Below are positions 3,369 through 11,431 of a stretch of DNA of 37,559 nucleotides, in pieces (the stretch's first letter is position 1; each line of letters begins with the position of its first letter). The DNA is from a virus. The stretch is from positions 1 to 37,559 of IMG/VR virus record IMGVR_UViG_3300021957_000121; one strand, given 5' to 3'. The position numbers and the translations under genes were made by a program. Under the pieces are notes generated by a model. That model saw only the letters and a list, made by a program, of their open reading frames with translations, searched no databases and had not been told where the DNA came from.

Positions 3369-3638
3369 CTACTTCTTGTATTTGTAGTAAACTACCATCA
3401 TTACGACCACTGAAATGCCACTTAAGACGTAATTGGTGCAGAGCCAATAGTCAAATCCAAACTTGAGAAGAGCATAGCCTAAAGCAGCAGAATAGCCAAC
3501 GATTGACATATAACAAAGCATAATGCTAACATCTTCAACCGATTGAGTTTTAATTGATTTGTATATCTGTGGCCAAAAGCAGCCAATGAAACAGATGTTA
3601 TAGATAACACCCAAGAGGTTCTCAATAGATGCAGTCAT
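3369..3638 (-). CDS. PQ-loop (SemiSWEET-like) membrane protein
   Basis: 89 aa with three predicted transmembrane helices. The first ends in the PQ motif of the SWEET/PQ-loop superfamily (CFWPQIYKSIKTQSVEDVS, about residues 20-38). The second and third lie near 40-60 and 65-85, and the C-terminus is basic (YYKYKK). This is the size of bacterial SemiSWEETs, which dimerise to form a sugar or small-solute path across the inner membrane. The substrate cannot be deduced. It overlaps the HAD gene by 17 nt. In a phage this is likely a metabolic add-on or a membrane-reprogramming protein. Confidence 0.75.
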   Translation of the reverse strand: MTASIENLLGVIYNICFIGCFWPQIYKSIKTQSVEDVSIMLCYMSIVGYSAALGYALLKFGFDYWLCTNYVLSGISVVVMMVVYYKYKK

Positions 3639-4191
3639 ACAAATCCTTCCAGTTCTTTACACGGATCACGTCTCCACACACTTCATAATCTGTGTTGTAT
3701 GGTTGGTTAAAGAGGAAAGACCTTAGCCCAAGTTTAGCTCCGACTTCAGCGTTTTCTGGTTTATCTTCAAGCCATACGAAACCTGAATCTTCATAGCGCT
3801 TAAGTGCTTCTGTCTTATCTGCACCACAGTCGATACATTGCACTCGTTCGAATACGCCATCTCCAAAAACGCGTTTGAGATTTTCCTCTCTTAATCGTTG
3901 AGCGTATGGTTCTGTGCCAAGTGAAGTGATGGCGTGGAATACAGCACCGTGTTCTTCATGCATTTTCCGTACGTACTTAATCGCATCATTAAGAGGTGGT
4001 AAGAACCCAATCGCTGCAGATTCATTGAAGTGCCTCACAAGAACATCTGCTTCATCAACTGATAGTCCATACATCTCTGATACTTTATAGGAAATGCACT
4101 TGCCTTTTTTATAGCCTTTACGCTTCATCCACCATTCAAATGAGTGGGCCCACGATAAGAGCACTCCGTCGACGTCAGTTAATATAATCAT
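3622..4191 (-). CDS. HAD-family phosphatase, probably a 5'-nucleotidase-like enzyme
   Basis: 189 aa. Motif I is T-D-V-D-G-V at residues 5-10, with nucleophile Asp6 and acid/base Asp8. Motif II is the Thr/Ser in HAITSLG around residue 90, and motif IV is the acidic patch WLEDKPENAEV near 140. The small cap between motifs I and II fits phage deoxyribonucleotidase-like HAD proteins, which dephosphorylate nucleotides; the substrate is inferred. Its start overlaps the nuclease stop as TAATG. It sits in a nucleotide-metabolism and repair neighbourhood. Confidence 0.75.
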   Translation of the reverse strand: MIILTDVDGVLLSWAHSFEWWMKRKGYKKGKCISYKVSEMYGLSVDEADVLVRHFNESAAIGFLPPLNDAIKYVRKMHEEHGAVFHAITSLGTEPYAQRLREENLKRVFGDGVFERVQCIDCGADKTEALKRYEDSGFVWLEDKPENAEVGAKLGLRSFLFNQPYNTDYEVCGDVIRVKNWKDLYDCIY

Positions 4192-4877
4192 TATCTATTT
4201 TCGTAATAATACGTTAGTTCTTCAATTAAGGGATCAACCCAATCTTCTGTATTTTCTTTAAAAATGATGGGCTTATCATCTCCATCAACAACCATCAGCG
4301 TGACAAGCTGATTCACCGCGATGCCAGTTCGTTCTTCAAACATTAAAGCATAAGCACACTCTTGCATGAAGTACGAACTAATTTCGCTACGCTCTTTAAT
4401 TCGCCCTGATGTCTTAAAATCTACGATAGACAACTCGCCATCAAACTCTGCGATACAATCTACCCGACCTGCAACCTTAAGAACGGTTGAGTAAAGAGGA
4501 CATTCTTGCATGTAGACTTTACCAACTTTGTCGTTAATTACTTTACGCAGTGTAGTCCAACTATGCAGAACATGTGGCATGCGATCACCTGGTGTGCGGA
4601 TATAGTCTTCTTCGTTATTGATATACCTTTCAGCGATATTATGAACTGCGGTTCCCCGTGTTGTAGCATGACGAGTAATCCGCTTAGCTTCTTCTTCACC
4701 GATGTTAGCACGCCATTTAGCCCATTTTCCACGATCACGGTAGCCGAGGGCTGTTGTAATAGAAGGGTACTTTTCACCTGTAGGCGTTATGTAAGTACGC
4801 CCTGATTTAAGTGTTTCAGCCTTAAGGTCTTCATAACCTAAGTCAATATTTTCGTGTTTAAAATTTGGTCTAAGCAT
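4191..4877 (-). CDS. RecB/Cas4-like PD-(D/E)XK exonuclease
   Basis: 228 aa from the ATG at 4877 (MLRPNFKHEN), which overlaps the upstream gene by 8 nt. A longer frame to 5012 would overlap it almost entirely. RecB-nuclease motifs occur in order: His79 in GTAVHNIAE, Asp140 in GRVD, Asp153-x-Lys155 in IVDFKTS, and the Q-x3-Y motif at Gln172-Tyr176. The length and motifs match phage single-domain exonucleases that process DNA ends in recombination or degrade host DNA. Which of these roles applies cannot be told. Confidence 0.85.
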   Translation of the reverse strand: MLRPNFKHENIDLGYEDLKAETLKSGRTYITPTGEKYPSITTALGYRDRGKWAKWRANIGEEEAKRITRHATTRGTAVHNIAERYINNEEDYIRTPGDRMPHVLHSWTTLRKVINDKVGKVYMQECPLYSTVLKVAGRVDCIAEFDGELSIVDFKTSGRIKERSEISSYFMQECAYALMFEERTGIAVNQLVTLMVVDGDDKPIIFKENTEDWVDPLIEELTYYYENR

Positions 4878-5073
4878 CTTTCTTAAAATTTCCTGTTTTA
4901 CTGATCTTACCAACCGATCCATTAAAGTTAAGGCCAGGCGCGCACATGCCTCGACTAACTTCTCCATTTTCTCCACACGGACAATTCTGTCCACACGGCA
5001 AATCGCGATCATTTACGGAATGCATTTCTTCCCATTCCTTTTCGCATTTCTTACAGTGATAATCGTATAGCAT
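4870..5073 (-). CDS. FmdB-like zinc ribbon protein, copy 1
   Basis: 67 aa, starting MLYDYHCKKCEKEWEEM. A TTG six codons up is disfavoured. Zinc ligands are CKKC at the N-terminus and CPCG after about 20 residues, the FmdB/CxxC regulatory-protein pattern, with a further Cys in RGMCAPG. The C-terminus is basic. It is adjacent to a paralogue (5078-5329) with the same start, MLYDYxCxxC, so this is a tandem duplication. Function unknown; nucleic-acid or protein binding is possible. Confidence 0.75.
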   Translation of the reverse strand: MLYDYHCKKCEKEWEEMHSVNDRDLPCGQNCPCGENGEVSRGMCAPGLNFNGSVGKISKTGNFKKDA

Positions 5074-5077
5074 AATA

Positions 5078-5329
5078 TTAATAGGTGTCAATCGTATTTT
5101 CTTTTCCAGACGCTTTCTTAATTCCTTTAAGAACGTCGTTCCACTCGTTTCCTGCTCGTTTAATTGGGTGTATACTATCGCTTACAATCGCAGGTGCACA
5201 CACACCTCGTTTTATAGTACCGCTTTTACCACACGGGCAGGGTTGGCCAACGGGCTTATCCCTATCAGCAGATAGATGGGATTCTTCCCAAGTTTCGTTG
5301 CATTGTTCGCAATAATAATCGTATAGCAT
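5078..5329 (-). CDS. FmdB-like zinc ribbon protein, copy 2
   Basis: 83 aa, starting MLYDYYCEQCNETWEESH. The zinc ligands are CEQC and CPCG, in the same positions as in the neighbour at 4870-5073, and both continue with an RG[MV]CAP motif. This copy has a longer basic C-terminal tail (KGIKKASGKENTIDTY). The ATG lies just after the stop of the upstream gene; a longer frame to 5425 would overlap that gene. Function unknown. Confidence 0.75.
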   Translation of the reverse strand: MLYDYYCEQCNETWEESHLSADRDKPVGQPCPCGKSGTIKRGVCAPAIVSDSIHPIKRAGNEWNDVLKGIKKASGKENTIDTY

Positions 5330-5330
5330 A

Positions 5331-5873
5331 TTAGAACCAATCTGGTGTTGAACGTTTGGTCCAAACCATTTTGAACCTTTCTTGTTTTGTTTTATAGAAC
5401 GCGCGGTATGATTTAACGACATCATCGAACATGCATTCTGGATTCGACTTCATCGCTAAAGGCCATTTGGTGAGTGGACCATTAGAAATATTTGCTGGAC
5501 CACAGAATAAGTCTTTTCGAAGTATTTCGTCTGATTTGTGGATTTTGCCATAGCGGAATGTGTATTCTTTACAAAGTGCATCGAACAGTTTCCAGTGCCA
5601 GCGGTAATTTTCTAGTGATTGCGCTGTCCATACCGTACAAGGATGGTGCATATGAACTGCTTTGTAATAAGTATCCTCACGCTCATCTGGTAGTACCCAA
5701 TAGCGTGACATTGTTTTACCCGAATTAGACGGTCTCCTCTCCTCAGCGCCATCAAGCATGCGGTGTGCAGTTGATAGCATCTGAGCAGATTCGACGATCA
5801 TCTTAGTCGTATGTTTATCGCAGTGCATCTGAGCTGCAATAACAGGATCTTTATCTAGTACAAACAAATTCAT
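5331..5873 (-). CDS. Conserved T4-like phage protein of unknown function
   Basis: 180 aa starting MNLFVLDKDPVIAAQMHCDKH. The family, common in marine T4-like phages, has a conserved HCDKHTTKMIVESAQMLSTAHR block, an HHPCTVW block and a C-terminal PDWF. The conserved His, Cys and Asp residues suggest an enzyme or metal site, but I know of no assigned activity. Its ATG lies only 7 nt after the TATAAT of the promoter at 5881-5909, so the transcript should have almost no 5' leader. Confidence 0.75.
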   Translation of the reverse strand: MNLFVLDKDPVIAAQMHCDKHTTKMIVESAQMLSTAHRMLDGAEERRPSNSGKTMSRYWVLPDEREDTYYKAVHMHHPCTVWTAQSLENYRWHWKLFDALCKEYTFRYGKIHKSDEILRKDLFCGPANISNGPLTKWPLAMKSNPECMFDDVVKSYRAFYKTKQERFKMVWTKRSTPDWF

Positions 5874-5880
5874 AATGTAT

Positions 5881-5909
5881 ATTATACCACAGTTTAAGTC
5901 TTTTGTACA
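5881..5909 (-). promoter_or_regulatory. Early promoter TGTACA-17-TATAAT giving a near-leaderless mRNA
   Basis: Minus strand: TGTACA at 5909-5904, 17-bp spacer, TATAAT at 5886-5881 preceded by TGG. The spacer shares AAAGrCyTAAACT with the promoter at 7261-7289. The TATAAT is followed by 7 nt and then the ATG of the gene at 5331-5873. A start site 6-7 nt after the -10 would be at the AUG or one base before it. Confidence 0.85.
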
Positions 5910-6338
5910 CTACAAAATCTCAGGGAAACAAGCTTCTACAAGACTCTTTGTAATTTTACGGTATTTCTTATTCTTAAGATTTGTGATAGTTCCATCTTTA
6001 GCAGCGCAGAGGAGCAGCGCGTCTTCTTCAGGCAGTTGCTCGAGCATACCAATCCAGATTTTTTCCTTTTTAATTTGAGAGATCTTGCTGCCTTTAACTA
6101 GCATGCCAATGTGCCTAAGTACATTAGCGATAGTTGCAGGTTCGCGACCTTCTTGAACTGGGTCAAATGGCGGTTTACCTTTCGGTAGATCGAGAATGAT
6201 CTTATCGTTATAGCACAGCTGAAGAATTGTCTTTACTTGCCTGTACGCGTTTTCTTTTAGATACTTAATTCGATCATCTCGCTCTTCGAGCTTACAGACT
6301 TCTTCGAATATTTCGTGTGGATATTTTTGGATGGACAT
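5910..6338 (-). CDS. Conserved T4-like phage protein (DUF6433-like)
   Basis: 142 aa starting MSIQKYPHEIFEEVCKLE. It is largely helical, with a conserved YLKENAYRQVKTILQLCYND segment (residues 28-47) and a DLPKGKPPFDP motif. I recall this family as DUF6433, found beside RNase H in marine T4-like phages; that name is from memory and unverified. It follows rnh by 2 nt and ends at the -35 of the next promoter. The role is unknown, probably DNA-replication associated by context. Confidence 0.75.
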   Translation of the reverse strand: MSIQKYPHEIFEEVCKLEERDDRIKYLKENAYRQVKTILQLCYNDKIILDLPKGKPPFDPVQEGREPATIANVLRHIGMLVKGSKISQIKKEKIWIGMLEQLPEEDALLLCAAKDGTITNLKNKKYRKITKSLVEACFPEIL

Positions 6339-6340
6339 GA

Positions 6341-7207
6341 TTATTTTTCAGTTATAAAGAAGTCTTTTGCGCATTCAACGAGCAAACTACACCTTTTTGT
6401 TATTAAGTAATTCAGCACTTTGTTGTTGGTTTTACCTTGTTGAGATTTATATTTATCCATAATGTTAGTCTGAATATCTTCAGGGATACAGTCTAGATCG
6501 ATAACAATCTTATTGCGGCAGTAATTGCGGAATGTTGCTTCACCCATTACGTCCAGCAGATTTTCGCGGTTTTCATACCACTCTTGAATTTTCTTTGCGC
6601 GTAAGGGCGATTGGCGGCCGCCGTCAACAAATGTTCCATCAGCGCTTAAGATGTTTGGTACTCCATCGCTACTATCACCTTTACAAACATGTTCGAACTT
6701 ATAGTACACTGGGTCGTCTACTTTAAGTGCTGCACGTTTCATTGGACTAAATTGCTTTACATTAGAATAGCGATGAAGCTGAATAAAGTCTTTATCAGAA
6801 GAAACGATCATAACCGGCTCGTGTTGACCGAATTCTTGAGTCGATTCAGTGAGAACTGCGATTACGTCATCAGCTTCAGCGCGATCAGCGTAGACCACTG
6901 GGAATCCCATTTCTTCTGCGATTTCGTCACGGATGTTGTTGAGGAATCCAAAGAGCTTATTCCAGTCAAGAGGTGATTCGTCACGTGAAGTTTTACGCTT
7001 CCCCTTGTATTGAGGAAACTTTTCTTTACGCCAAGAGGTGCGGTCACACGCAATGATCGTTTGCCCATACTCCTCGCGGAACTTGACGTTATAGCGGCGA
7101 ATGCTATTGAGAATCATATGTCTAATAAGACTTTCCTCGATTTCTTCGGGTCGGTCTTGAGAAAAAATAGCGGCGATTGCTATGCCTGAGTAATCTATAA
7201 TTGTAAT
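6341..7207 (-). CDS. rnh: T4-type RNase H / 5'-3' exonuclease with no canonical start codon
   Basis: A FEN-1-like 5' nuclease that removes RNA primers from lagging-strand fragments. The first in-frame ATG (7117) would cut off the first catalytic aspartate. The frame stays open upstream and encodes ITIIDYSGIAIAAIF, matching T4 RNase H (LIDFSQIALS), then SLIRHMILNSI, matching T4 MVRHLILNSI. Further motifs are RAEADDVIAVL, SSDKDFIQLH and KGDSSDGVPN. I place the start at ATT (7207), 6 nt after an AAGGAAAGG ribosome site, giving 288 aa (T4: 305). An in-frame stop lies just above. ATT initiation, or a base lost from an ATG, are both possible. Confidence 0.85.
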   Translation of the reverse strand: MTIIDYSGIAIAAIFSQDRPEEIEESLIRHMILNSIRRYNVKFREEYGQTIIACDRTSWRKEKFPQYKGKRKTSRDESPLDWNKLFGFLNNIRDEIAEEMGFPVVYADRAEADDVIAVLTESTQEFGQHEPVMIVSSDKDFIQLHRYSNVKQFSPMKRAALKVDDPVYYKFEHVCKGDSSDGVPNILSADGTFVDGGRQSPLRAKKIQEWYENRENLLDVMGEATFRNYCRNKIVIDLDCIPEDIQTNIMDKYKSQQGKTNNKVLNYLITKRCSLLVECAKDFFITEK

Positions 7208-7260
7208 GGGATGCCTTTCCTTATGGTATGTTTATATGTAGCTTATTGCTTTACTACTAT

Positions 7261-7292: not shown

Positions 7293-7733
7293 CTAAGTGA
7301 AGTCTTCTGGTGTAAGGGCTTTTAGATGAGCTCTATTGATACGACCGCCAAAAAAGGCGTTGTGATATTCTTCTGGTTTTAATAGCGCATGAGTAGTCAT
7401 TTGCTCGTAGCACTCCATATAACTCATCACGCCCTTTGATTTGCAGAGATGAATGATTTCTCGTTTGAAGTGGTCTAATCCGTTTTCTTCAACAATAAGT
7501 TTTACAGCTTCACTTGAACCGCAATACGTTTTCCAATCAGATTCTTTTAAAGATCTGCGCTTTCGCGTCTTACCTTTCAAAGGTGGTTTAGTCACTTTAC
7601 TCCATATCGTTTTTTTTCCGATATATTTCATGCCAGTAGAAGTATCCGTAACGACATAGACAAACCCACACCACTTCTCAAGTTCTTCTTTTGGTGGATC
7701 CCACTTTTTTCCCTTATATACCCAATCGCTCAT
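7293..7733 (-). CDS. Conserved T4-like GIY-YIG-fold protein
   Basis: 146 aa starting MSDWVYKGKKWDPP. The GIY-YIG signature is seen as GFVYVVT (residues 23-29) and KYIGKK (36-41). It is followed by a basic block GKTRKRRSLKESDWKTYCGSS and an Asn/His-rich C-terminus. Stand-alone relatives are present in many T4-like phages and are usually called Seg-like or putative endonucleases; DNA cleavage is inferred from the fold. It is the full-length member of a broken pair: a related 34-codon 5' fragment lies at 8530-8634 across the homing endonuclease. Confidence 0.75.
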   Translation of the reverse strand: MSDWVYKGKKWDPPKEELEKWCGFVYVVTDTSTGMKYIGKKTIWSKVTKPPLKGKTRKRRSLKESDWKTYCGSSEAVKLIVEENGLDHFKREIIHLCKSKGVMSYMECYEQMTTHALLKPEEYHNAFFGGRINRAHLKALTPEDFT

Positions 7734-7751
7734 TCTTAAAACATGTTTTAT

Positions 7752-7759
7752 TATAAATA
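7752..7759 (+). promoter_or_regulatory. T4-type late promoter TATAAATA on the plus strand
   Basis: A perfect TATAAATA is the only late-promoter match pointing right in the area. It lies 72 nt before the ATG of the plus-strand homing endonuclease, so it probably drives that gene. T4 homing endonuclease genes are known to use late promoters. A 14-bp palindrome, TAAAACATGTTTTA (7737-7750), abuts it. Confidence 0.6.
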
Positions 7760-7831
7760 GAAGTACTGGTCACGGTATTGACGTACCCACCAGCTCTAAA
7801 CTTATTAACCTTAAACGAAAGAAGTTCAGCT

Positions 7832-8533
7832 ATGTATATTTATACACCGTACACCTATCTAATCGGGTGGTCAAAATTAAACAAATGGTACTATGGCGTA
7901 CGCTTTGCAAAGAAGTCTGCCTGTTTGTACGAAACAGGTTGTCACCCCGATGATTTTTGGAAAACGTATTTTACTTCAAGTAAAGCCGTAGAATCATTCA
8001 AAGAAGACAATGGTGAGCCAGATATCGTTGAGATACGCAAACAATTCAAAACTGCAAACGAAGCACGTGATTGGGAAATGCGAGTGTTATTAAAACTCGA
8101 TGTCAAAAATAATGACGACTGGTTGAACAAACGACCTTTTACACCGTCTTGCGAGCCAGGTTGGGCCTGGTCAGAGGAGAGCAAAGGTAATTCAAGAAAA
8201 CCTAAATCTAAAGATCACGCTAGAAATATATCTAGGGGAAGAACTGGTATCACATTCTCCAATTCACACATAGAAAATATCAGAATTGCTACAACTGGAG
8301 TTAAGCAACGTGACGTGACTAAAAGAAAGCGGAGTGAGACTATGAGTAAATTAAAATGGTGGAATGATGGATCAACCAATGTTAGATCAGTAACACCACC
8401 TGACACACAATGGCAATCAGGAAGATGCGGTAAATACACTCAAAGAGCAACTAAGGAATGCCCTCACTGTGGAAAAATCGGTAAAGGTGGTGCTATGTCT
8501 ATGTGGCATTTCGATAACTGTAAATACCGTTAG
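7832..8533 (+). CDS. GIY-YIG-type homing endonuclease with zinc finger (only plus-strand gene)
   Basis: 233 aa from ATG 7832; a TTG start at 7778 is disfavoured. The N-terminal nuclease domain reads YLIGW (9-13), then YYGVR (20-24), a divergent GIY-YIG. The middle has NUMOD3-like DNA-binding repeats (RNISRGRTGITFSNSH and KRKRSETMSKLKW). The C-terminus carries a CPHC...H...C zinc finger. This architecture is that of free-standing phage homing endonucleases, which cut an allele lacking them and spread by repair. Orientation opposite to all neighbours, its own late promoter and a flanking gene fragment mark it as a recent insertion. Confidence 0.8.
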   Translation: MYIYTPYTYLIGWSKLNKWYYGVRFAKKSACLYETGCHPDDFWKTYFTSSKAVESFKEDNGEPDIVEIRKQFKTANEARDWEMRVLLKLDVKNNDDWLNKRPFTPSCEPGWAWSEESKGNSRKPKSKDHARNISRGRTGITFSNSHIENIRIATTGVKQRDVTKRKRSETMSKLKWWNDGSTNVRSVTPPDTQWQSGRCGKYTQRATKECPHCGKIGKGGAMSMWHFDNCKYR

Positions 8534-8634
8534 ATATACTTCATGCTAGTAGAAGTATCGGTGACAACATAGACAAACCCTACGTTATCACCGATCATTT
8601 CACTAGTAAACTCTTTACCTTTGTAACTCCACAT
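8530..8634 (-). pseudogene. Truncated 5' copy of the GIY-YIG gene at 7293-7733
   Basis: Thirty-four codons from an ATG read MWSYKGKEFTSEMIGDNVGF, then VYVVTDTSTSMKYI and a stop. The last 17 residues match residues 22-38 of the 7293-7733 protein (GFVYVVTDTSTGMKYI), with about 43 of 48 bases identical. Similarity ends exactly at the YIG half of the active-site motif, where the homing endonuclease stop codon overlaps the fragment stop. It is best read as the cut-off 5' end of the gene into which the element went. Confidence 0.85.
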
Positions 8635-8642
8635 GGAGTTAT

Positions 8643-8804
8643 TTATTCGTACTCTTCTTCGCCGATTAGTTCTACTTCTCCGTAATTTTCAGCACCACAG
8701 AATGGGCAGTACGATGGATGTAAGTCTGGATCGACATCTTCATCTCTGTATTGAACAGAGTATTGTGAATCGCAGTGGCGACAATATTGTGTTTCTTTAA
8801 TCAT
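8643..8804 (-). CDS. Small zinc ribbon protein downstream of nrdA
   Basis: 53 aa starting MIKETQYCRHC. Two CxxC pairs (CRHC near residue 8 and CPFC near residue 34) flank an acidic loop (DEDVDPDLHPSY), and an acidic tail follows. It overlaps the nrdA stop as TAATG, so it is translated with RNR. It could bind nucleic acid or assist RNR; no direct evidence. Confidence 0.7.
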   Translation of the reverse strand: MIKETQYCRHCDSQYSVQYRDEDVDPDLHPSYCPFCGAENYGEVELIGEEEYE

Positions 8805-10438
8805 TAACCCTCGCACGATGTGCATGTAAGTAAGTTGCGTGATAGCTCTTGTGCTGGATTAGTACCACGATGATAGTAGAGCGTTTTTACACCCTGTTCC
8901 CACGCGTAAATGAGAAGTTGATTTGTATCGCGTGGTGGAGTCTTAGGGTGAATCATTAGATTAATACTCTGCGATTGATCAATGTACTTTTGACGAATAC
9001 CTGTTTGTAGAATAACTTCCTTCTGTGAGATTTCACCGAATGTTTTAAACACGTCTTTTTCGTGATCAGATAAGAACATTAAGTGTTGAACACTTCCACC
9101 CGTTACAAGAATAGACTTCCATACATCAGAATTGTCATGACCGTGTTCTTTAAGTACTTCCTTTAAGAAAGGATTCTTATAAGTAAACTTACCTTTTGCG
9201 AGATCTTTCACAAAGTAGTTACTATTCAACGGTTCAATACTAGGTGATACTTGACCAAGTATGAATGAACTTGAGGTTGTAGGTGCGATTGCTTGAGTTG
9301 TCATGTTCCTACGACCCGAGCCTTTTAACTTTTCAGGTACACCATAAGTTTTAGCCAGTTCACGTGATGCGGTCATACTTTCAGCTTCAATATGACTAAA
9401 GATCTGATTAGTCAGCATTTTAGCTTCTAAACTCTCGAAGGCTACACTCTTAGATTGTAGGAATGAGTGCCATCCAAGGACACCTATTCCAAGTGCACGT
9501 TGTTGTATTGAGAACTTACGAGGTGCTTCCATAAATGGTAAACCTTCAGTCTTTTCGATGAACTCTTCAATCACCGTGTCAAGGAAGCGCGTAAGAACTT
9601 GAACAGCGTCTGTTTCTTTCCACTCTTCGTAGTGCAATAGGTTCATAGAAGATAAACAGCAGACAAAAGATTCTTCTTCACTCGTTGACAAACAAATTTC
9701 AGAACATAGGTTTGAAGCGTGGATCTTACCGCTTTCTTTTGGCTTATTTTTATTCACAGTATCACTAAACATGATGTAAGGATACCCGCTTTCATAACGC
9801 TTTTGAATAACTTTACCCCAAATCTTACGCTTGTCTTTATCTCCATCGAGCATTTCTTTCATGAACTTATCAGTGACTGTTACGCCAATTGACATGTTCT
9901 GAATGGGATTACCATCACCACGAATTTGAAGGAACTCGAGGATGTCAGGATGTTCAATAGGCATATAACCAGCAAAGGAACCACGACGGACGTTGCTCTG
10001 AGAAACAACATTCGTCATGGTTTCGAATAGTTCCATAAAATGTACAGGACCATTTGAATTACCACCTGCTGATATTTCAGAACCCCGACTACGCAGTGCT
10101 CCAAAGTATGCAGATGTTCCTCCACCCATTTTAGTCATCATGCCAACCTCGGCTTGTTTACCTAAAATAGATTCCATGGTGTCGCCAATGAAAGATCCAA
10201 AGCAAGAAATGGGTAAGCCACGTTTAAGCCCATAGTTTGCCCAGATCGGAGATGCTAACGAGTACCATCCTCTTGACATGTAATCTTCAAATCTGTCTGC
10301 GAAGCCATCTTCACCTAAGATTCGTTGTGCTTTCAGCGCGATTTGTCTTATTCTTTTTTCAGGGGTTTGTCCTTCAGTCAAGTAACCTCTTTCAAGAAAA
10401 AGACGCGAATCTTTATTTAGCCAGTAATATTTTTCCAT
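8804..10438 (-). CDS. nrdA: Class Ia ribonucleotide reductase, large subunit
   Basis: 544 aa, short because the N-terminal ATP-cone is missing, so dATP inhibition at that site is probably absent. Catalytic residues are visible: Cys79 in GLPISCFGS, N-x-C-x-E at Asn243-Cys245-Glu247, the second redox cysteine at 260/261 in FVCCLSSMN, the radical-path pair Tyr521-Tyr522 in TLYYHRG, and the C-terminal shuttle cysteines Cys539 and Cys542. It reduces ribonucleoside diphosphates to deoxy forms together with NrdB. The gene is 15 nt from nrdB in one operon. No glutaredoxin gene is seen in the window. Confidence 0.95.
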   Translation of the reverse strand: MEKYYWLNKDSRLFLERGYLTEGQTPEKRIRQIALKAQRILGEDGFADRFEDYMSRGWYSLASPIWANYGLKRGLPISCFGSFIGDTMESILGKQAEVGMMTKMGGGTSAYFGALRSRGSEISAGGNSNGPVHFMELFETMTNVVSQSNVRRGSFAGYMPIEHPDILEFLQIRGDGNPIQNMSIGVTVTDKFMKEMLDGDKDKRKIWGKVIQKRYESGYPYIMFSDTVNKNKPKESGKIHASNLCSEICLSTSEEESFVCCLSSMNLLHYEEWKETDAVQVLTRFLDTVIEEFIEKTEGLPFMEAPRKFSIQQRALGIGVLGWHSFLQSKSVAFESLEAKMLTNQIFSHIEAESMTASRELAKTYGVPEKLKGSGRRNMTTQAIAPTTSSSFILGQVSPSIEPLNSNYFVKDLAKGKFTYKNPFLKEVLKEHGHDNSDVWKSILVTGGSVQHLMFLSDHEKDVFKTFGEISQKEVILQTGIRQKYIDQSQSINLMIHPKTPPRDTNQLLIYAWEQGVKTLYYHRGTNPAQELSRNLLTCTSCEG

Positions 10439-10453
10439 AGTGTATATATACCC

Positions 10454-11431
10454 TTAAAATAGGTCGTCTTCGTCGTATGATTTGTCTTTCTTTGAGTACT
10501 CGGTCGGCCGTTTAAAAAAGAAGTCGGTTGCGGTATTTCCGAGGACGTCCTCATCAAACCAAGTTGTCTTTTCTAATAGCGATTGATCAACGTCATCAAA
10601 CACCGGTTTAATACTAATCTGTGTAAGAGAGTCGTTGAGTCGATTCTTGATAAAATTTTGTAGAATAGGAGTACTCAAATGTTCTGATTGATACCCATTC
10701 ACCGACCATTCAATGATTTTAGATTCTGCTTTAAATGCTTCTACACACTCATGGCGGATACGCTCTTCAAACTCTTCGTCAAACAACTCAGGGTGTTCTT
10801 CACGAATTGTATTCACTAGTTTAATACCAACCATCGCATGGATAAGCTCTTCTTTTGATGTGTACGCCACTTGCTGAGATACATCTTTAAGCTGGTTTTT
10901 GAAACGATTAAAGTAGTTAATGGTATAGAACTGACTAAATAGTGAAACGTTTTCTACATACAGCGTAAATAGAATAAGAGAATATACGTACTGCTTCTTT
11001 GAATCTTTATAGTACTTGTGTAAATACTTGCGGAGATACTTTACTCGATTTTGAATAATGTCAAGTTTAAGATTTTCTTCAAACACGTCTTCCATGTCAA
11101 GAATATCAATTAAGCGCTCGTAGGCGTTATTATGAATAACCTCGACATTAGCCATCACGTAACCGAGATCAGTGATTGACGGGTGCGGTAGGTTTTCTCC
11201 CACTTTAGCCCAAAAGGTTTTTACTGCTACTTCGATTTGTGCAATTGCTGATAATGAACGAGTAACCATGTCTCGTTCATTATCTGACATATTCACTTTA
11301 AAGTCTTGAACGTCTGACTGGAAATTGAATTCCTTATCGGTCCAAAACCCATTATGCATTGCAGTAATGAACTCTTCAGTCCAAGGGTAGTGATCAGGTT
11401 TGCGTGATATTTGTTCTTCGAAAATTGACAT
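10454..11431 (-). CDS. nrdB: Class Ia ribonucleotide reductase, small (radical) subunit
   Basis: 325 aa. The di-iron/tyrosyl-radical site is intact. Ligands are Glu67 (IEVAV), Glu97 and His100 in EVIHNNAY with the radical Tyr104 (spacing E-x2-H-x3-Y as in E. coli NrdB), the Glu in LYVENVSLF, and E-x2-H in EELIHAM. The acidic, aromatic tail (KDKSYDEDDLF) is the NrdA-docking peptide. It is the first gene after the promoter at 11465-11493 with a leader of roughly 30 nt, and precedes nrdA. Confidence 0.95.
   Translation of the reverse strand: MSIFEEQISRKPDHYPWTEEFITAMHNGFWTDKEFNFQSDVQDFKVNMSDNERDMVTRSLSAIAQIEVAVKTFWAKVGENLPHPSITDLGYVMANVEVIHNNAYERLIDILDMEDVFEENLKLDIIQNRVKYLRKYLHKYYKDSKKQYVYSLILFTLYVENVSLFSQFYTINYFNRFKNQLKDVSQQVAYTSKEELIHAMVGIKLVNTIREEHPELFDEEFEERIRHECVEAFKAESKIIEWSVNGYQSEHLSTPILQNFIKNRLNDSLTQISIKPVFDDVDQSLLEKTTWFDEDVLGNTATDFFFKRPTEYSKKDKSYDEDDLF

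Follow-up and report, generated by a model that had tools for sequence, protein, structure and literature searches.

The closest described parallel to the locus analysed here is the WHO element of yeast, in which the endonuclease gene is flanked by a full-length chimeric target gene on one side and the displaced former gene end of the recipient on the other, the two ends of the target gene conflict in their affinity, and the element is defined as the endonuclease plus the replacement end (Coughlan et al. 2020, eLife, PMC7282813). In the scheme put forward for these elements, the displaced fragment offers homology to later rounds of homing, and resistance comes from the new end (PMC7282813). 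Mobile ORFs with replacement C-termini have also been described from fungal mitochondria, in atp6 of Allomyces and in atp6, atp9, cox2 and nad3 of Glomus, where the displaced resident end clusters with close relatives (PMC3630166). T4-like phages carry free-standing seg (GIY-YIG) and mob (HNH) endonuclease genes with co-conversion of flanks, and some of these genes have late promoters and a structure that sequesters the ribosome-binding site (Edgell et al. 2010, PMC2988022). The endonuclease genes reviewed there either lie between genes or split them (mobE in nrdA of Aeh1, mobA in gene 60), and the word stems duplicat-, truncat- and chimer- are absent from the main text of that review.

The window analysed is a whole 37,559-base virus record (G000), a fragment of an uncultured virus, and its SegE locus looks like a bacteriophage counterpart of the strategy known from fungi, because related viruses show the same arrangement with other genes. 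As in WHO elements, the phage endonuclease has a complete target gene on one side and a partial copy of it on the other, both in the window and in the recurrent cases described below; in the window and in loci L127, L018 and L132 the complete gene is chimeric and the partial copy, termed the orphan here, is the resident end. WHO elements differ in using an intein-derived endonuclease with a zinc finger, in residing in yeast nuclear DNA, in targeting FBA1 at the 3' end only and in having demonstrated allele-specific cleavage, whereas the phage elements, known here from sequence alone, are of GIY-YIG type, have several targets, involve 5' as well as 3' ends and are mostly antisense. The profile matches place the phage endonuclease with the GIY-YIG type and not in a line of descent from the intein-type WHO/HO endonucleases, and the likeness is therefore one of mechanism only. 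The fungal mobile ORFs share the insertion of a foreign gene end together with an endonuclease ORF and the displacement of the resident end behind the endonuclease, but they are found in organelles and replace C-termini only, in contrast to the phage setting here. No phage case of a gene-end-replacing endonuclease was found in the open-access full-text literature, and as far as that search reaches this is the first, the novel aspects being the GIY-YIG enzymes, the many targets and the inclusion of 5' ends.

Read along the minus strand, the gene order is nrdB, nrdA, a small zinc-ribbon ORF, a SegE fragment (the orphan), the antisense endonuclease gene, a complete SegE-like gene and a T4-type RNase H (Table 1). 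The orphan retains a resident upstream context (nrdA followed by the zinc-ribbon ORF) and translates as MWSYKGKEFTSEMIGDNVGFVYVVTDTSTSMKYI followed by a stop; its TAA (8532-8530) overlaps the TAG of the endonuclease gene (8531-8533, plus strand), which starts with an ATG at 7832. On recheck, the coordinates, gene order, fragment end at KYI and stop overlap of the original prediction all held. The match between the fragment and the intact gene had been placed at residues 22-38, of which codons 23-38 stand and residue 22 does not; these codons form a direct repeat with 90% nucleotide identity and 15/16 identical residues, and directly upstream of it the two copies are only about 48% identical. 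A DNA search for close phage isolates gave matches limited to nrdA, RNase H and one endonuclease.

Table 1. Positions of the features of the SegE locus within the window
Feature	Position	Strand	Evidence
T4-type RNase H / 5'-3' exonuclease, downstream neighbour, resident context	6344..7210	-	PF02739, PF09293; position same in L025-L035
Complete, chimeric SegE-like gene, 146 aa	7293..7733	-	PF19835 E 4e-34 and chimera test
Body of the intact SegE-like gene, resident-type, from codon 23 to its stop	7293..7667	-	nucleotide identity to L025
Direct repeat of 48 nt, intact-gene copy	7620..7667	-	43/48 identical to 8533-8580
Foreign replacement 5' end, codons 1-22 of the intact gene	7668..7733	-	82% nucleotide identity to L174/L185
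T4-type late-promoter-like TATAAATA, putative endonuclease promoter	7752..7759	+	enriched upstream of homologs
Conserved structured leader, helices P1, P2 and P3; P3 overlaps the Shine-Dalgarno region	7759..7834	+	model R1, covariation
Free-standing GIY-YIG-type homing endonuclease gene, 233 aa	7832..8533	+	PHROG 314; PF19835 below cut-off
TATTTATA, reverse complement of the late promoter, just past the start codon	7837..7844	+	would close helix P0 in read-through transcripts
Orphan, resident-type SegE-like 5' end, 34 codons, ending KYI and stop	8530..8634	-	33/34 residues identical to codons 1-34 of L025
Direct repeat of 48 nt, orphan copy	8533..8580	-	43/48 identical to 7620-7667
Small zinc-ribbon-like ORF, upstream neighbour, resident context	8643..8825	-	position same in L025, L028, L030-L035

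Both pieces of the target gene match the Pfam family SegE_GIY-YIG (PF19835), the orphan with E 4e-8 and the intact gene with 117.8 bits against a curated cut-off of 25. The closest SegE homologs in IMG/VR (L025, L026 and L027; 81-83% amino acid identity) each have a single uninterrupted gene and no endonuclease, and in these the gene lies between nrdA/zinc ribbon (as far as the contig extends) and RNase H. The original prediction expected the fragment to join a 3' part seamlessly in relatives that lack the endonuclease, and such joining is seen in all three, the L025 gene reading on past KYI through GKK and its 3' part matching the complete gene of the window. The different 5' end noted earlier for the intact gene proves to be of a foreign type: two further endonuclease-free loci (L174 and L185), located by a degenerate pattern for WDPPKEEL, have the order nrdA, zinc ribbon, SegE and RNase H, and their SegE begins MWSYKGKRWDPPKEELKKWCGFVYEITD. 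Codons 1-22 of the intact gene are closest to these two loci and only 47-53% identical in nucleotides to L025-L027 (50% to L025); from GFVY to KYI its identity is 88% with L025 and 67% with L174, and beyond KYI 84% and 59%. The allele switch is located in GGGTTTGT(C/G)TATG, which encodes the GIY motif. Because codons 1-22 match another allele and the remainder is of L025 type, the complete SegE-like gene is a chimera, and the orphan is the resident-type 5' end; L174 and L025 serve only as stand-ins for the two alleles.

The orphan is about 95% identical to L025 over its coding part (counted by eye) and the body 84%, so that a single common recipient is not required; the body could partly have arrived with the cassette, and more than one exchange may have happened. 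The 48-nt overlap of orphan and body means that the window, unlike L127, is not a clean cut-and-insert. Since the switch to the resident type falls at GFVY, about 48 nt before the end of the orphan, the KYI-GKK region of the intact gene is nearly resident-type. Any resistance to cleavage would have to come from the new sequence 5' of GFVY or from a small number of substitutions, for example FQ to IW at codons 42-43. Two glycosyltransferase-like ORFs are found between the zinc-ribbon ORF and SegE in L026 (2294-3432), and the same interval holds other cargo in other relatives (thermonuclease-like, NTN hydrolase-like; by eye). SegE-like genes such as that at 7293-7733 are labelled 'NAD synthetase' in PHROG 447 and in many phage entries of GenBank, which looks like a misannotation that has spread.

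The window is best read, with a probability of roughly three in four, as carrying a free-standing homing element that consists of a GIY-YIG endonuclease gene and a replacement end of its target gene. The endonuclease would probably cut a sensitive resident SegE-like gene in the conserved GIY-YIG motif region; repair off the element-bearing phage would copy in the endonuclease together with the donor 5' end, which would join the resident body in frame at the GFVY codons and leave the resident 5' end stranded on the far side as an orphan abutting the endonuclease stop codon. The host gene remains complete, and insertion should therefore cost little. The orphan may supply homology for the next round of homing, as proposed for the WHO elements, and the 48-nt overlap would fit that scheme if the last part of the orphan derives from the donor's own orphan. 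Only the footprint of homing is visible, from which we infer cleavage, homing and the resistance of the chimera.

A profile match (E 1.7e-12) links the endonuclease to PHROG 314, homing endonuclease, and with PF19835 it reaches 23.4 bits, slightly under the cut-off. Within its family two tyrosines, E82 and N99 are invariant and the arginine is merely the majority residue, and its C-terminus carries a zinc-finger-like Cys/His pattern (CPHCGK..HFDNC). The AlphaFold model is poor (pLDDT 50), and a profile search of the PDB with the endonuclease gave nothing relevant. An inverted 37-nt match (81%) links the target gene at 7500-7536 with the endonuclease gene at 7957-7993, and both copies encode WKTY..SS.AV, indicating that the endonuclease and its target are distant relatives.

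The sister of the window endonuclease in the tree is that of Rhizobium phage RHph_I1_18, which is 51% identical and occupies the same place, with a complete SegE on one side and on the other a SegE fragment of 22 codons; the stop codons of this fragment and of the endonuclease overlap. Among 56 distinct endonuclease homologs with both flanks available, a same-strand partial gene duplication abuts the endonuclease in eight, as against 4/218 control ORFs (Fisher p 5e-4). Mismatched flank pairs gave the same signal in 4/2160, of which three combine loci with a common target gene and the fourth (L125/window) has SegE on both sides. By this test the pattern is absent from 48/56 homologs, and gene-end replacement is therefore one outcome among several. 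The geometry of the eight cases is constrained: one gene piece ends less than 70 nt from the endonuclease stop and the other less than 250 nt from its start, the endonuclease is antisense in seven, and the gene is always left complete. The targets are the 5' end of SegE in the window and L001, the 3' end of a PD-(D/E)XK nuclease in L127 and L132, the 3' end of a metallophosphoesterase in L018, the 3' end of a T4-type neck protein in L013, the 5' end of a nucleotidase in L169, where the orphan is only nine codons long, and the 3' end of nrdB in L121; orphans thus include 3' ends that have no start codon. Between cases, the similarity of the endonucleases is only about 30-58%, and those with a common target are sisters in the tree (window and L001; L127 and L132).

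For L127, L132 and L018, comparison of gene tails shows that a foreign 3' end is joined to a resident body and that the resident 3' end has been orphaned. All 12 endonuclease-free relatives of L127 with 82-97% identical bodies have tails nearer to the orphan (43-56/63) than to the tail of the complete gene (38-44/63), and the resident gene is split cleanly at a single point (GAGTGGATC / ACTGGCTACTTC). The tails of the 12 nearest relatives of L132 are likewise nearer to the orphan (44-48 versus 29-34), as are 72/76 for L018; these counts are not independent events, because the relatives include near-duplicates. The orphan of L013 is still joined to the next gene of the resident, as in its relatives. 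Together with the chimera test, recurrence with other genes supports the earlier proposal of an endonuclease that brings along a replacement 5' end and thereby leaves its target gene whole.

L121 was set aside as a chimera case, the nrdB tails there not revealing which is foreign; in that locus (3959-5945) the endonuclease runs in the direction of nrdB, its C-terminus is fused in frame to the orphan nrdB tail, and the last part of both tails is identical in DNA. L021, with large duplicated genes on both sides, was not counted as a gene end. SegE adjoins an antisense family member in L125 and L138 with no orphan fragment, possibly a simpler or older form of the element. Neighbouring genes of the window at 3622-4191 (nucleotidase), 4191-5012 (PD-(D/E)XK nuclease) and 10454-11431 (nrdB) are targets of other family members in other phages.

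An unlikely alternative is ordinary mosaic recombination, by which an intergenic endonuclease and the adjoining SegE end would have entered by homologous recombination on one side and an illegitimate join on the other, the orphan being scar tissue outside any mobile unit and the new end having no protective role. Nuclease genes are known at the boundaries of inter-phage genetic exchange (PMC10448857), and both the orphan-free junctions of L125/L138 and the absence of orphans from most homologs would suit such a history; the tight limits on geometry with seven antisense cases, the completeness of the gene in every case and the retention of the same target by endonucleases across deep divergence speak against it. 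Very improbable, and largely refuted, is an initial tandem duplication of SegE of which one copy was later destroyed by the endonuclease. Two homologous pieces do lie side by side and tandem paralogs occur elsewhere in the window and in L021, but the intact copy has its 5' end from another allele, the same arrangement is found with unrelated genes, and endonuclease-free phages with a truncated second copy, named beforehand as the refuting case, did not appear: when 90 SegE loci from outside the window were searched against themselves, none had a real second copy, and L049 gave one weak unrelated hit. Least probable of all is a misassembly of the locus or a role for the 34-codon fragment as a small gene, in favour of which it retains its start codon and upstream sequence. 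The fragment breaks off right at the endonuclease stop, some orphans are 3' ends with no start or just nine codons long, and analogous arrangements occur in several independently assembled contigs and in isolate genome MN988519.

The cassette also carries expression signals: TATAAATA and the leader are positioned between the endonuclease and the foreign SegE 5' end. TATAAATA occurs within 160 nt upstream in 30/60 homologs, and [AT]ATAAATA in 35/60 versus 40/1200 random windows. The window leader, which is among the 28 sequences that built model R1, matches it with 58.9 bits (E 2e-14). In the 28 aligned leaders 91% of cells in the three helices pair, and covariation is 0.783, whereas shuffles reach 0.231 and slid versions no more than 0.138. 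Compensatory cells number 132 and G-U cells just 2; nearly all pairs are Watson-Crick, and with G-U so scarce the element may have a role as DNA. A search of Rfam with 7600-8000 gave no match of note for the leader. A candidate third, degenerate copy of GFVYVVTDTS at 7792-7745 was rejected, this stretch being the P1/P2 hairpin of the leader.

Of 20 whole phage records, 11 contain matches to the leader model, 51 in all and at most 13 per record, and an ORF follows immediately in all 29 places inspected. Thirteen of 20 such ORFs scanned exceed the Pfam cut-off for NUMOD3, HNH_3 or GIY-YIG, and five more match below it. Leaders occur in L001-L172 and L515-L544, before both GIY-YIG and HNH endonuclease genes. 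TATTTAT at the start is found in 24/29 leader-bearing endonucleases versus 3/31 with no leader, and because it follows the start codon, leader ORFs often begin M-x-I-Y. Folding suggests that the promoter-start helix would form only in read-through transcripts, resembling the control of I-TevI, in which a late promoter likewise lies at the 5' edge of a structure that hides the start site in read-through transcripts only; unlike I-TevI, the leader adds the conserved helices P1-P3 3' of the promoter and is common to GIY-YIG and HNH genes of many subfamilies. In L031 a leader (1549-1623) precedes a different GIY-YIG endonuclease (1621-2292) downstream of SegE, and its 3' half is nearly identical to that of the window, which suggests that leaders are exchanged between endonuclease families. 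This shared, strongly covarying leader would serve as a marker by which mobile endonuclease genes can be found whatever their nuclease family.

On the usual view, free-standing endonuclease genes do their phages little harm by occupying intergenic or intron sites. The endonucleases considered here instead sit within genes, a number of which are conserved, and repair them by supplying a foreign end. The chances seem evenly balanced that diverse phage GIY-YIG endonucleases are gene-end-replacing elements of this kind, in which a foreign 5' or 3' target end repairs the gene and protects it from renewed cutting and a portable late promoter and leader are common to unrelated GIY-YIG and HNH genes. 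The eight cases, the several targets and the use of both gene ends point to a general strategy rather than a curiosity. If that reading is true, phage gene ends evolve through repeated selfish replacement. Insertion into genes with repair by a foreign end would account for chimeric phage genes with clashing ends and would give phages a gene-conversion drive parallel to that of the WHO elements, directly testable in phages. Elsewhere in the window, the adjoining small zinc-ribbon-like ORFs at 4870-5091 and 5078-5425 (MLYDYHCKKCEKEW / MLYDYYCEQCNETW) have the look of a tandem duplication.
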